This document shows, piece after piece, positions 58,834-63,654 of a DNA stretch of 64,000 bases. Each line of letters opens with the position of its first letter. The stretch's first letter is position 1. Origin of the DNA: Oscillospiraceae bacterium (GTDB lineage: Bacteria > Bacillota > Clostridia > Oscillospirales > Ruminococcaceae); NCBI GenBank assembly GCA_024684395.1, contig JAIKWY010000044.1:99044-163043 (forward strand). Reading direction: 5' to 3'. Made by a program: the position numbers and the translations under genes. The notes under the pieces are model-generated. The model made no database searches and was not told the DNA's origin. It worked only from the letters and a program-made list of their open reading frames with translations.

Positions 58834-60741
58834 TTATTCATCAAGGATCAGCGGGGGCGGGGGCGGATTGTCCGGGAGCACCTCTACGGAATCATCTGCG
58901 GGAGGTGTTACGGGGGTGTCCTGACCGCCGGGGTTTGCGGCGCCGCTGTCTTCGGTATCGCTGCCGTCCGGGTCAAGGGTCGGGGTCGGCGTGGGCTTCG
59001 GTGCGCTGGTCTCGATCACGGGGTTATTTGCATAGAAGATCTTCAGCGTCTCGCCCTTGGTCAGGTCGAATTTCTCGCCGGCATCCTGGCTCAGCTCGAT
59101 GACCATGCCGTCTTCATAGTCATAGTTGACAACTGCTTCGGTGTTGTACGGGAGTCCGAGATCATCCAGCTCGGCGGTATATGCCTTGAGCGTCTTATCC
59201 TTGAATTCCGGAATGACGATCGAGGACGGTCCCTTGCTGACGGTGACTTCTACCGTGGCACCGCTGCTGAACGGCGTACCCGGTTGGAGCTCCTGGTCAA
59301 TGATCAGACCTGCCTTGTACTTCTCGCTGTAGTCATATTTTGCACTCAGATAGAGCCAGCCGTCCTTTTCGAGCTGCTCCTTCTTGGACTCGAAGTTCTT
59401 GCCGATGAGGTCGGGCATCTGGCTGTCGCCGCTCGGCTGTTCCTCATCCGAGGTGGATTCGAGCACGATATTATCCGTGGTCGCTGCAATGGTCGGTGCC
59501 GAGGTCTCAGCAGCCATGCTTTCCTTCGGATCCATGTCAATATCGAGCAGATTCAGCACAACGATCGCAATGACCAGCAGGACACAGGTCAGCAGGACAC
59601 CGATGATGATCGGGATCTTGATGCGGTCGATGACATTTTCCTTATCCTCGGTGATATAGTCATCGCCCTTGTGCTCTTCACGCAGCACGTTGCGGCGATA
59701 TGTCTCAAGATCCGTGACATTCTGACGGCGGCTCTGCTGGCGGCGGGAGGGCTCGATCGGGATGGGCTTGGTCTCCTCCTCCTCTGCCTGCTCGAACAGC
59801 TCGGTGACAAGCTCGGTCACGTCCTTGATACGATCCTCGGAGAAGAGGCTCATACCATGCATGATGACCTTGGACACATGCTTCGGGATGCTGGAGTTCA
59901 TCTCGTGCGGGGCGCAGAGGTTGTCATTCTGCATACGGCTCGGCGCATCGGTCGGCTTGCAGCCGGTCAGGATGCGGTACAGCACGGCACAGATGCCGTA
60001 GACATCCGTCCAGGTGCCCTGGCGGGTGCTGGCGTTGTACTGCTCGGGTGCCGCATAGCCGCCGAAGATCTCGCACGGCAGCTCGGTATGCACGGTGCGG
60101 ACGGTCGAAATGGAAAATCCGGTCAGCCGCAGCTCGTTCTTATCCGTGACATAGATCGTATCCGGGCTGATGGCACGGTGGATGATGCCGTTGTTGTGCA
60201 GCAGGCTGAGGGTGGTGAAGAAGGTAGGGAACATCTCCGAGACCTGCTTCCAGGTCAGCTCGCCGGCATTGTCTTTCAGGTAATCCACCAGCGTGACGCC
60301 GTCGATATATTCATAGACGGCATAGGTGGTGTTATTGGTCGCAAACAGATCCAGTGTAGGGGTGATATGCGAAACGTTCCGCATATGGGCAAGGCTTTTG
60401 TTCAGCTCCGTAAATTCTGCCATGAGTGCCTTATACTGTACCACCTGCTGTGTATTGACACTGATCATGGGGATACCCTTCATGCGGGTACACAGCCCCT
60501 CCGGCATGTATTCCCGGATGAGCACCTTGCAGCCGATCGACTTGTTATAGCCGAGATAGGTCGCACCCTCGCTGTTGTGTCTGAGCATGACGCCCACAAT
60601 ATATCTCTCATTCAGTTCCGTTCCCGGAGCGATGTAATTTGTATCATAAGCCGTGCCGTCGGCATAACCACAATTGGGGCAGACAGCTGCTTCGGCGGGT
60701 TTATATTCCATGCATCCGCAGCACAGTCTTCTTTCTCCCAT
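58834..60741 (-). CDS. Zinc-ribbon, kinase-fold (candidate pseudokinase), TM, PASTA-domain protein
   Basis: CCGCMEYKPAEAAVCPNCGY zinc ribbon; kinase fold with VLIREYMP, HRAISPDTIYV, LRLTGFSIS, GGYAAPEQY...WTDVYGICAVLYRILTG; TM PIIIGVLLTCVLLVIAIVVLNLL; two PASTA-like repeats (PDLIGKNFESKKEQLEKDGW..., IPEFKDKTLKAYTAELDDLGLPYN...). Start at MGERRLCC preceded by AAGGAG. Confidence 0.88.
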   Translation of the reverse strand: MGERRLCCGCMEYKPAEAAVCPNCGYADGTAYDTNYIAPGTELNERYIVGVMLRHNSEGATYLGYNKSIGCKVLIREYMPEGLCTRMKGIPMISVNTQQVVQYKALMAEFTELNKSLAHMRNVSHITPTLDLFATNNTTYAVYEYIDGVTLVDYLKDNAGELTWKQVSEMFPTFFTTLSLLHNNGIIHRAISPDTIYVTDKNELRLTGFSISTVRTVHTELPCEIFGGYAAPEQYNASTRQGTWTDVYGICAVLYRILTGCKPTDAPSRMQNDNLCAPHEMNSSIPKHVSKVIMHGMSLFSEDRIKDVTELVTELFEQAEEEETKPIPIEPSRRQQSRRQNVTDLETYRRNVLREEHKGDDYITEDKENVIDRIKIPIIIGVLLTCVLLVIAIVVLNLLDIDMDPKESMAAETSAPTIAATTDNIVLESTSDEEQPSGDSQMPDLIGKNFESKKEQLEKDGWLYLSAKYDYSEKYKAGLIIDQELQPGTPFSSGATVEVTVSKGPSSIVIPEFKDKTLKAYTAELDDLGLPYNTEAVVNYDYEDGMVIELSQDAGEKFDLTKGETLKIFYANNPVIETSAPKPTPTPTLDPDGSDTEDSGAANPGGQDTPVTPPADDSVEVLPDNPPPPPLILDE

Positions 60742-60807
60742 AGGGCCATCTCCTTTCCGGCAGTCTCTCTTTTGTTCATCGGGATACACTACCCCGATAC
60801 CTATACT

Positions 60808-60836
60808 ATTTTAACAGTTTCAAGGAAGAATGTCAA
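60808..60836 (-). promoter_or_regulatory. SigA-type promoter for the pseudokinase gene
   Basis: Minus strand TTGACA-N17-TAAAAT. Confidence 0.7.
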
Positions 60837-60947
60837 CCAAAATCCTGTTTTGTACAGGTATTCGGGGAAGAATTGTATTTGATTTGTAACATTCTTTCAC
60901 TTTTTTTTAACCACGGTCAAGGCTCCTCTATCATAAAAAGACGGCGA

Positions 60948-61016: not shown

Positions 61017-61718
61017 TCAGACCTTCTCCTGGAGGGCTGTGCGCAGCTTCCGGATGATCTTTTTCTCGAGCCGTGAGATATAGGACTGCGAGATGCCGAT
61101 GCGGTCGGCGACCTCCTTCTGGGTCAGTTCCCTGCCGCCGCAGAGCCCGAAGCGCAGCTCCATGATCTCCCGTTCCCGTTCCGGGAGTGCCCGGACGGCT
61201 TCGAGGAGGGCTTCCCGTTCGGCTTCCTGCTCCACGCCACGGCTGACGATGTCCTCCTCGGTGCCGAGGACATCGGAGAGGAGCAGCTCATTGCCGTCCC
61301 AGTCCACATTCAGGGGCTCGTCGATGGAGATCTCGCCCCGGTATTGCGCCGCTTTCCGCAGGAACATTAAAATTTCATTCTCGATGCAGCGGGAGGCATA
61401 GGTCGCCAGCTTGATATTTTTGTCCGTCCGGAAGGTCTCCACGGCTTTGATGAGCCCGATCGTGCCGATGGAGATGAAGTCTTCGAGCGAATGGCCGGGG
61501 GTCTCGAATTTCTTGGCGATGAACACCACCAGCCGCAGATTGTGGACAATGAGCGTTTCCCGTGCCTGCGGATCGCCTTTGGCAAGGCGGGTGAGGACTT
61601 CGTTTTCCTCCTCCCGGGTGAGCGGCGGTGGGAGCGTATCGGCGCCGTTGATGTAGTGTACGCCGGCGGGGGGGAGCAGTTTGCGGAAGAGGGTGCGGAT
61701 GAGTTGCAGTAGGTTCAT
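61017..61718 (-). CDS. sigE: RNA polymerase sporulation sigma factor SigE
   Basis: [81 protein letters not shown]; adjacency to spoIIGA. Confidence 0.95.
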
Positions 61719-61764
61719 GGTGATACCTCCTATGCAGTGATGAAAAAAGATGCGGGTGCAGGGC

Positions 61765-61815
61765 GGTCACCGTCCTGCCGAGGGGAGGTAAGGAGGGGGC
61801 GAGGAGCCCCCTCCT
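61765..61815 (-). repeat. Family 2 palindromic element, reverse copy between sigE and spoIIGA
   Basis: gggcggtcaccgtcctgccgaggggagg...ggagggggcgaggagccccctcctt, inverted relative to 58600-58672. Confidence 0.65.
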
Positions 61816-62615
61816 TAATAGCGAAGCAGCTTGGGATTGAAAACAGCCTGCTTCGTGTCGTGCTCCGTAAAGCCGATGAGGACGTCTACGGGCTTTTTGA
61901 TGCGGTCTGTGCTGATGAGCACTTCATCCGGCGCAAAACACAGCACGACACCGTCCCCGGCGACGGTCGAGCAGGGGAGCGGGCGGTATTTCTCCGGGGG
62001 CAGCTCCTTCGGCAGCAGCGGCGAAAGCTGCGCTCTCCCGCAGATGATGACGGGCTTTCCGGTGTAGAAATCTGTCAGGGAATTGCCGGTATCTGCCATG
62101 CCGTCCAGTACGATCACGGCATCCCCTTTCCGGATCGTGACGTGATAGCTCCCGTCGGCGGCTGTTGTCCTGTCACGGAGGCGCTGTATCACGGTCAATA
62201 GCAGATAGGCTATGACGGTGAAGAGCACGAGCTGCCGGAGGGAGATGTCCGGGTACCAGCTGCCGTTGGCATACCAGATGCGGGCGCCCATGAGCGAGAG
62301 GGCGAGCAGGATCCCGGCTGTCATGCAGCTCATGCCCAAAAAGCTGAGACAATGCCAGAACAGCCGTTGTCCGTCCTTGCATCCGAAGGCGGCGATGCAG
62401 AGCAAAGTGCTGCTGCCGATCTTACACAGGAGCGAGAGCAGCAAGGGCATTGGCGGCAGCAGGATCAGCAGCGAGGCGGCGCTCCCCACTGCTGCGCCGA
62501 GCAGTGCTCTGCTGAAGGAGAGCCGTGTGTGCGTCAGTCCGGCGGTGAGCTGCAAGAGGATATAGTCCATGAACAGCGATGTCACCAGCAGGACATCGGC
62601 ATAGATGATGTGCAA
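61815..62615 (-). CDS. spoIIGA: Sigma-E processing peptidase SpoIIGA
   Basis: Five TM segments; Asp-protease-type motif GMADTGNSLTDFYTGKPVIIC; adjacency to sigE. Confidence 0.9.
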   Translation of the reverse strand: MHIIYADVLLVTSLFMDYILLQLTAGLTHTRLSFSRALLGAAVGSAASLLILLPPMPLLLSLLCKIGSSTLLCIAAFGCKDGQRLFWHCLSFLGMSCMTAGILLALSLMGARIWYANGSWYPDISLRQLVLFTVIAYLLLTVIQRLRDRTTAADGSYHVTIRKGDAVIVLDGMADTGNSLTDFYTGKPVIICGRAQLSPLLPKELPPEKYRPLPCSTVAGDGVVLCFAPDEVLISTDRIKKPVDVLIGFTEHDTKQAVFNPKLLRY

Positions 62616-62757: not shown

Positions 62758-62850
62758 GTAGGGAGTTTGAGGGGGCTTTGCCCCCTCAAACCCATTCCTC
62801 CCCCTTTTGGGGAGGTGCCGCCGAATGGCGGCGGAGGGGGCGCTTGGCAG
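62758..62850. repeat. Family 2 palindromic element between spoIIGA and sigG
   Basis: TTTGAGGGGGC-ttt-GCCCCCTCAAA; cctcccccttttggggagg; GCCGCCgaatGGCGGC. Confidence 0.75.
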
Positions 62851-62880
62851 AGAACAGCCACATCAACAGGAGGCAAAACC

Positions 62881-63654
62881 ATGGGTTATCAGAAGGTCGT
62901 GATCGCAGGGATCAACACATCAGAGCTGACGGTGCTCACCGAGGCGGAAAAGATCGCCCTGCTCCGGGAGTTCAAGGAGACCGGGAGCAAGGCGGTGCGG
63001 GACAAGCTGGTGCAGGGGAATCTGCGGCTGGTGCTGAGTGTGGTACAGCGGTTTGCGGGGCGCGGCGAGGATGTGGATGACCTCTTCCAGATCGGGGTGG
63101 TCGGGCTCATCAAGGCGATCAATAATTTTGATCTATCCAAAGAGGTACGGTTCTCGACCTATTGTGTGCCGATGATCAGCGGCGAGCTGCGGCGGCATCT
63201 GCGGGATCACAGCCATATCAAGGTCAGCCGCTCGATGCGGGATCTTGCGTACAAAGCCATTCAGGCGAAGGAAGCGCTGACCAACCGTTTCCAGCGGGAG
63301 CCGACGATGGATGAGATCGCCGGGGAGATCGGGGAAAAGCGGGCGGACGTGGTGATCGCCCTGGAGAGTATCAGCGATCCGATCTCGTTATATGAGCCGG
63401 TGTATTCGGATGCGGGGGATACGCTGTATGTGATGGATCAGCTGAGTGACAACGAGAGCGATGAGAGCTGGATCGCACGGTTTTCGATGCGGGATGCGAT
63501 GCGGTCGCTGGGCAAGCGGGAGAAGCATATCCTGTATATGCGGTTTTTATGCGGGAAGACGCAGACGGAGGTGGCGCAGGAGATCGGCATCTCGCAGGCG
63601 CAGGTGTCACGGCTGGAGAAAGGGGCGATCGCTAAGATCAAAGAGGCGATTTAA
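62881..63654 (+). CDS. sigG: RNA polymerase sporulation sigma factor SigG
   Basis: MGYQKVVIAGINTSELTVLTEAEKIALLREFKETGSKAVRDKLVQGNLRLVLSVVQRFAGRGEDVDDLFQIGVVGLIKAINNFDLSKEVRFSTYCVPMI. Confidence 0.94.
   Translation: MGYQKVVIAGINTSELTVLTEAEKIALLREFKETGSKAVRDKLVQGNLRLVLSVVQRFAGRGEDVDDLFQIGVVGLIKAINNFDLSKEVRFSTYCVPMISGELRRHLRDHSHIKVSRSMRDLAYKAIQAKEALTNRFQREPTMDEIAGEIGEKRADVVIALESISDPISLYEPVYSDAGDTLYVMDQLSDNESDESWIARFSMRDAMRSLGKREKHILYMRFLCGKTQTEVAQEIGISQAQVSRLEKGAIAKIKEAI

Follow-up and report, generated by a model that had tools for sequence, protein, structure and literature searches.

What can a wall-sensing receptor do when its kinase fold no longer has the catalytic residues? The question is raised by a gene in a 64,000 nucleotide stretch of an Oscillospiraceae genome (the window), whose product joins a degenerate kinase domain to PASTA repeats. 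Most of the bacterial pseudokinase families on record come from actinobacteria, proteobacteria or cyanobacteria, and few have a known function. Here the pseudokinase is attached to a module recognised for wall sensing, and about nine in ten of the genomes sampled from two gut and rumen families have kept it. A first-pass annotation of the window took the protein for a dead relative of the PknB/PrkC kinases with a possible link to sporulation.

Structure of the gene and its product

The gene has its own promoter and terminator, as first described (Table 1). The ATG at 60741 is preferred to an in-frame GTG further upstream at 60789 because it is preceded by an AAAGGAG site and because the promoter -10 ends at 60808. 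The 11/12 promoter match is found in 26 of 29 congeners as TTGACA-17-TAAAAT/TACAAT or a close variant, against an average of 7.2 to 8.9 in shuffled sequences. By its consensus the promoter appears to be a conserved housekeeping pattern. The terminator is missing from the terminator scan, which demands a loop of 3-8 nt.

Along the product, a 4-Cys zinc ribbon is followed by a kinase fold, then by a single transmembrane (TM) helix and two PASTA domains; Pfam and hydropathy bear out the layout proposed earlier. The kinase domain (60.7 bits against a PF00069 cut-off of 31.7) and both PASTA domains exceed the Pfam gathering scores, PASTA 2 with 24.8 bits against 23.2 in the genome search. The PASTA domains follow the single TM helix, as in kinases of the PrkC/PknB/Stk1 type. 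The linkers are long and rich in Ser, Thr and Pro.

Table 1. Features of the pseudokinase-PASTA receptor locus, in window positions
Feature	Position	Strand	Basis or remark
Pseudokinase-PASTA receptor gene	58834..60741	-	635 aa, ATG start
Ribosome site AAAGGAG	60756-60750	-	ahead of ATG 60741
Extended -10 housekeeping-type promoter TTGACA-17-TAAAAT	60836-60808	-	11/12 match
Intrinsic terminator GAACCCCGAGATCTCGGGGTTC + T7	58822-58794	-	read from sequence
4-Cys zinc ribbon C7, C10, C21, C24	60670..60723	-	at least 95% conserved over pseudokinase set
Pseudokinase domain, about residues 45-317	59791..60609	-	Pfam PF00069 and HHalign
Altered Gly-rich loop NSEG (56-59)	60565..60576	-	family consensus N-G/S-E-G; active paralogues GGFG/GGMA
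R76 at beta3; Lys in active kinases	60514..60516	-	opposite IKEYMP-type Lys (HHalign)
L113 at alphaC; Glu in active kinases	60403..60405	-	active E 7/7
Catalytic loop HRAISPDT: HRD Asp = A190, Asn = T195	60157..60180	-	D in 7/7 active
DFG position = GFS (208-210)	60112..60120	-	active LIDFG opposite LTGFS (HHalign)
Single TM helix, about residues 376-398	59548..59616	-	hydropathy
PASTA 1, residues 441-503	59233..59421	-	Pfam PF03793 best stretch
PASTA 2, about residues 508-571	59029..59220	-	Pfam, two stretches

Loss of the catalytic residues

Residue equivalence was established from sequence and profile alignments. The HHalign profile-profile alignment with 14 active zinc-ribbon kinases (probability 100, E 7.7e-92) runs without gaps through the motifs, and therefore all the canonical catalytic residues are replaced in this protein. 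The changed motifs RHNSEG, VLIREYMP, HRAISPDTI and TGFS all read as originally claimed. The HRDISPDN of the active kinases pairs with HRAISPDT. The D of SPDT has its counterpart in the D of SPDN, and that residue does not serve as the catalytic base. The first-pass annotation had allowed that the catalytic residues might be supplied nearby; in the alignment with active kinases no neighbouring residue substitutes for the HRD Asp, and the position is unfilled. The DFG motif is altered as stated, reading TGFS, but the equivalent of its Asp had to be refined to G208 rather than T207, and the alphaC Glu proved to be lost as well.

Bacterial pseudokinases are defined by loss of the beta3 Lys, the HRD Asp and/or the DFG Asp, and these positions hold R76, A190 and G208. 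Judged by its sequence, the protein is a PASTA-bearing pseudokinase and would be expected to lack kinase activity in vitro. AlphaFold2 with 12 close homologues gave poor models (pLDDT 51 over the full length, 48 for the kinase domain). The top Foldseek matches of the low-confidence model were protein kinases (PpkA, S. aureus PknB/Stk1) at a TM score of about 0.3, so the order of the elements is supported and not their geometry.

The same loss extends across the family. Among 145 aligned rows, which include a few duplicates, none has the HRD Asp, and 25 extra loci, which bring the set to 153 distinct orthologues, add no exception. As read from these alignments, this is far more than chance or sequencing error would produce. 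The beta3 position is Arg in 109 rows and Lys in 29 (R/K/H/Y/A/S seen overall), the DFG Asp is retained in 18 (G/D/A/E/N/S seen), and both Lys and DFG Asp are retained in 7. The alphaC position is Leu in 115, and Lys, HRD Asp, Asn and DFG Asp are jointly lost in 82. The fold-holding HRD His, APE Glu and C-lobe Arg304 are invariant (145/145), and the alphaF Asp is present in 144. In the Gly-rich loop, residue 58 (60568-60570) is Glu in 132 rows and acidic (E or D) in 142; it may pair with R76, closing the pocket. Orthologues were expected to keep the same replacements beside sigE. The congeners read across the motifs all have R76 and T195, and their residue 190 is either Ala or Gly; the adjacency to sigE is not shared by the seven congeners whose flanks were read.

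Distribution, selection and descent

About 35 congeners with the gene were found among 60 relatives. A 31-member profile at E<=1e-120 finds a single-copy orthologue in 179 of 199 genomes (88 of 95 genera) of the window's family and in 90 of 100 genomes (89 of 99 genera) of a second family, or 269 of 299 combined. About 90% of the sampled genomes in two gut-bacterial families carry a receptor with the same loss, and for this reason the inactive form has very probably been retained to serve cell-wall signalling without catalysis. A caveat is that the profile was built from pseudokinases, but class-wide its matches drop from 1e-151 or better to 1e-113 for the next class, and the two are separate in the tree described below. 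In this class-wide sample full-length matches at the pseudokinase level are confined to the order, and most of the weaker ones are active zinc-ribbon kinases that have HRD. The architecture of zinc ribbon, kinase, TM helix and PASTA recurs across the wider order. In the genera g360, g424, g426 and g409 all sampled genomes lack the pseudokinase at E<=1e-120 and keep PrkC; these may be natural losses, which would be useful for comparison, or else copies that have diverged.

The kinase domain is under strongly purifying selection, with dN/dS of 0.02-0.14 (five pairs, two of them near or beyond synonymous saturation). The motif losses alone might suggest a decaying gene or a sequencing artefact, but the low dN/dS, the conserved promoter and the orthologues in 269 of 299 genomes refute both, in agreement with the first assessment, and leave this explanation with practically no probability.

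A tree built by a quick method after masking of the catalytic columns places 30 pseudokinases in a single clade (SH-aLRT 97). Their same-lineage sister is a group of 22 zinc-ribbon kinases, and PrkC is a distant outgroup. The simplest reading is that the catalytic Asp was lost once in the pseudokinase clade. Descent from a PknB/PrkC kinase, implied earlier, did not survive this analysis: the kinase domain groups with active zinc-ribbon 'IKEYMP/HRDISPDNI' kinases, and the masked-column tree, together with an NF033483 score of 164.4 bits against a cut-off of 450, rejects a dead PknB/PrkC origin.

The first-pass annotation proposed looking for an active PASTA kinase elsewhere in the genome, and an intact one is there: a canonical prpC-prkC-rsgA locus encodes a PrkC that has three PASTA domains and whose kinase motifs are intact. 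PrkC is present in 198 of 199 genomes of the family, including all 20 without the pseudokinase. Because it is near-universal, the co-occurrence carries little information. An active-looking zinc-ribbon kinase fused to leucine-rich repeats lies on contig C103 of the window's genome (L127:2639-5530, minus strand). At another locus (L136:4693-14001, plus strand) three zinc-ribbon kinases with intact HRD motifs stand in tandem, and the one scanned has six PASTA domains and Listeria-Bacteroides repeats.

Gene neighbourhood

The pseudokinase gene lies downstream of spoIIGA and sigE on the same strand (the pair at 61017-62615, minus), and a sigG-like gene (62767-63654, plus) is divergent from them. 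In B. subtilis sigG follows sigE. No sigE adjoins the pseudokinase gene in seven congeners read with flanks of about 5-6 kb, and no conserved neighbour genes were found across the order. In L044 and L045, the two closest relatives (96% and 85% identity), the gene comes after genes resembling yabQ, divIC and yabR and one for a secreted protein, all identified by eye from their translations. DNA similarity to the nearest relative (L044) ends sharply, at 60940 on one side and 58790 on the other, which leaves the gene with its promoter and terminator as the conserved unit. Such sharp ends could come from a rearrangement, or one of the assemblies could contain a contig join. The window's genome measures 4.21 Mb, against 1.3-2.9 Mb in congeners.

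The neighbouring genes had been taken as a hint of a sporulation role. A sporulation-specific receptor tied to sigE and spoIIGA would fit the adjacency in this genome and a weak association with SpoIIGA among genomes of the window's family (both present in 168, the pseudokinase gene only in 11, SpoIIGA only in 16, neither in 4; Fisher p=0.049, uncorrected for phylogeny). However, the nearest relatives have other neighbours and homology to the nearest one stops at 60940 and 58790, the conserved promoter is of housekeeping type, and the gene is kept in the 11 genomes without SpoIIGA. On neighbours, promoter and counts the link is rejected as the main reading, and its probability is slight indeed.

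Relationship to known kinases and pseudokinases

The PrkC/PknB/Stk1 kinases (NF033483) share with the window protein a cytoplasmic kinase fold, one TM helix and extracytoplasmic PASTA repeats. The window protein differs in scoring under their cut-off, in lacking the catalytic residues, in its zinc ribbon and in a kinase domain of another lineage. The zinc ribbon and kinase lineage are those of the active 'IKEYMP/HRDISPDNI' Hanks kinases of Clostridia (L127, L136, L160-L171), the sister clade, which keep Lys, Glu, Asp, Asn and Asp and of which some have 5-6 PASTA domains. The best PDB sequence match is PpkA (5hnv, E 2.5e-18), which we take to be a P. aeruginosa protein. It has IKEYMP where the window protein has IREYMP, and HRD and DFG in place of HRA and GFS.

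By analogy, the closest functional precedent is CD2148 of C. difficile, a membrane-anchored atypical Hanks kinase without the catalytic D and N (S134, S139), which is phosphorylated in vitro only with PrkC present and modulates PrkC-dependent CwlA phosphorylation (PMC9674922). The corresponding residues of the window protein are A190 and T195. Unlike the window protein, CD2148 has no PASTA domains in the published description, on which this likeness is drawn (PMC9674922). The pseudokinase domain of M. tuberculosis MviN (ActPs3) likewise lies within a membrane protein and is a client of a PASTA kinase (PMC12599244); compared by description, it differs in a reported activation-loop deletion and in having no PASTA domains. 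The DYD family of actinobacteria and firmicutes (PMC12599244) shares the change of beta3 Lys to Arg and the loss of the alphaC Glu (R76, L113), but the window protein has GFS for the DYD motif and T195 for the Asn, and has lost the HRD Asp.

ActPs1-3, GLW, CP1 and DLHK were compared by their written description in PMC12599244. None of the seven pseudokinase-rich families described in the literature outside subscription journals combines a zinc ribbon with PASTA domains. A PASTA pseudokinase family was not found in that literature, the subscription papers, including a 42-family kinase classification, lying beyond its scope. The PASTA-sensor pseudokinases look like a new family when the bSTK families are compared by description.

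Proposed role and alternatives

We give an even chance to the proposal that the protein is a non-catalytic, single-pass wall-sensing receptor that signals through contact, the PrkC/PrpC module being its most likely target. The two extracytoplasmic PASTA domains are predicted to be the sensors of cell-wall material, with ligands of the muropeptide/lipid II class, and the cytoplasmic zinc-ribbon and kinase-fold module would relay their state through protein-protein contact, not phosphotransfer. From the features above we infer wall-ligand sensing by the PASTA domains and PrkC as the partner. Toward the PrkC/PrpC (PASTA kinase/PP2C) module the protein might be a docking partner, an allosteric regulator or a substrate adaptor. 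An allosteric partner or decoy of an active PASTA kinase, as suggested earlier, is plausible from the sequence. Contact signalling is favoured by the replacement of four to five catalytic residues with the fold-holding residues kept, by order-level conservation in one clade under purifying selection, and by the intact PrkC in the genome. Against the proposal, PrkC is too widespread for its presence to tell much, and no conserved gene neighbour points to a partner.

The receptor could instead be a scaffold downstream of PrkC, with its pseudokinase domain or tails, once phosphorylated by PrkC, recruiting wall-synthesis or division proteins while PrkC itself goes unregulated. The scaffold roles of the MviN pseudokinase with FhaA and of EssB/YukC (PMC12599244) are precedents, and the long Ser/Thr/Pro-rich linkers would suit it, but no conserved neighbour is fit to be the client, and we consider a scaffold somewhat unlikely. 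A switch in which the altered pocket binds a nucleotide or metabolite without catalysis, its occupancy altering partner binding, draws on the 7 of 145 rows that keep both beta3 Lys and DFG Asp and on the ATP binding modelled for the K-to-R pseudokinases ActPs2 and DYD (PMC12599244). The joint loss of four catalytic residues in 82 rows speaks against such a switch, as does the acidic E58 in the P-loop (132/145), which should disfavour phosphate binding, and this makes it unlikely. Catalysis by non-standard residues would make the protein a YegI-like kinase or a SelO-like AMP transferase. SelO and SidJ exist (PMC12599244), and YegI, cited in PMC9674922 and one of a few bacterial kinases reported active without canonical motifs, counts against the proposed non-catalytic receptor. 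The candidate positions at beta3 and DFG vary freely, however, and no invariant acidic residue takes the place of the HRD Asp; atypical catalysis is very unlikely.

Returning to contact with PrkC, we tentatively raise the possibility that the protein is an obligate non-catalytic co-receptor of PrkC, and that with its relatives it makes up a PASTA pseudokinase family, so far undescribed and near-universal in two large families of gut Clostridia. If true, the cell wall would be read jointly by a live PASTA receptor and a dead one. If PrkC is regulated in this way, Gram-positive wall sensing would in these bacteria be the work of a live/dead receptor pair, offering a clean test of what bacterial pseudokinases can do. 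The conserved change of the HRD Asp to Gly or Ala also provides a simple annotation rule, which is useful because these proteins pass the Pfam cut-off for kinases.
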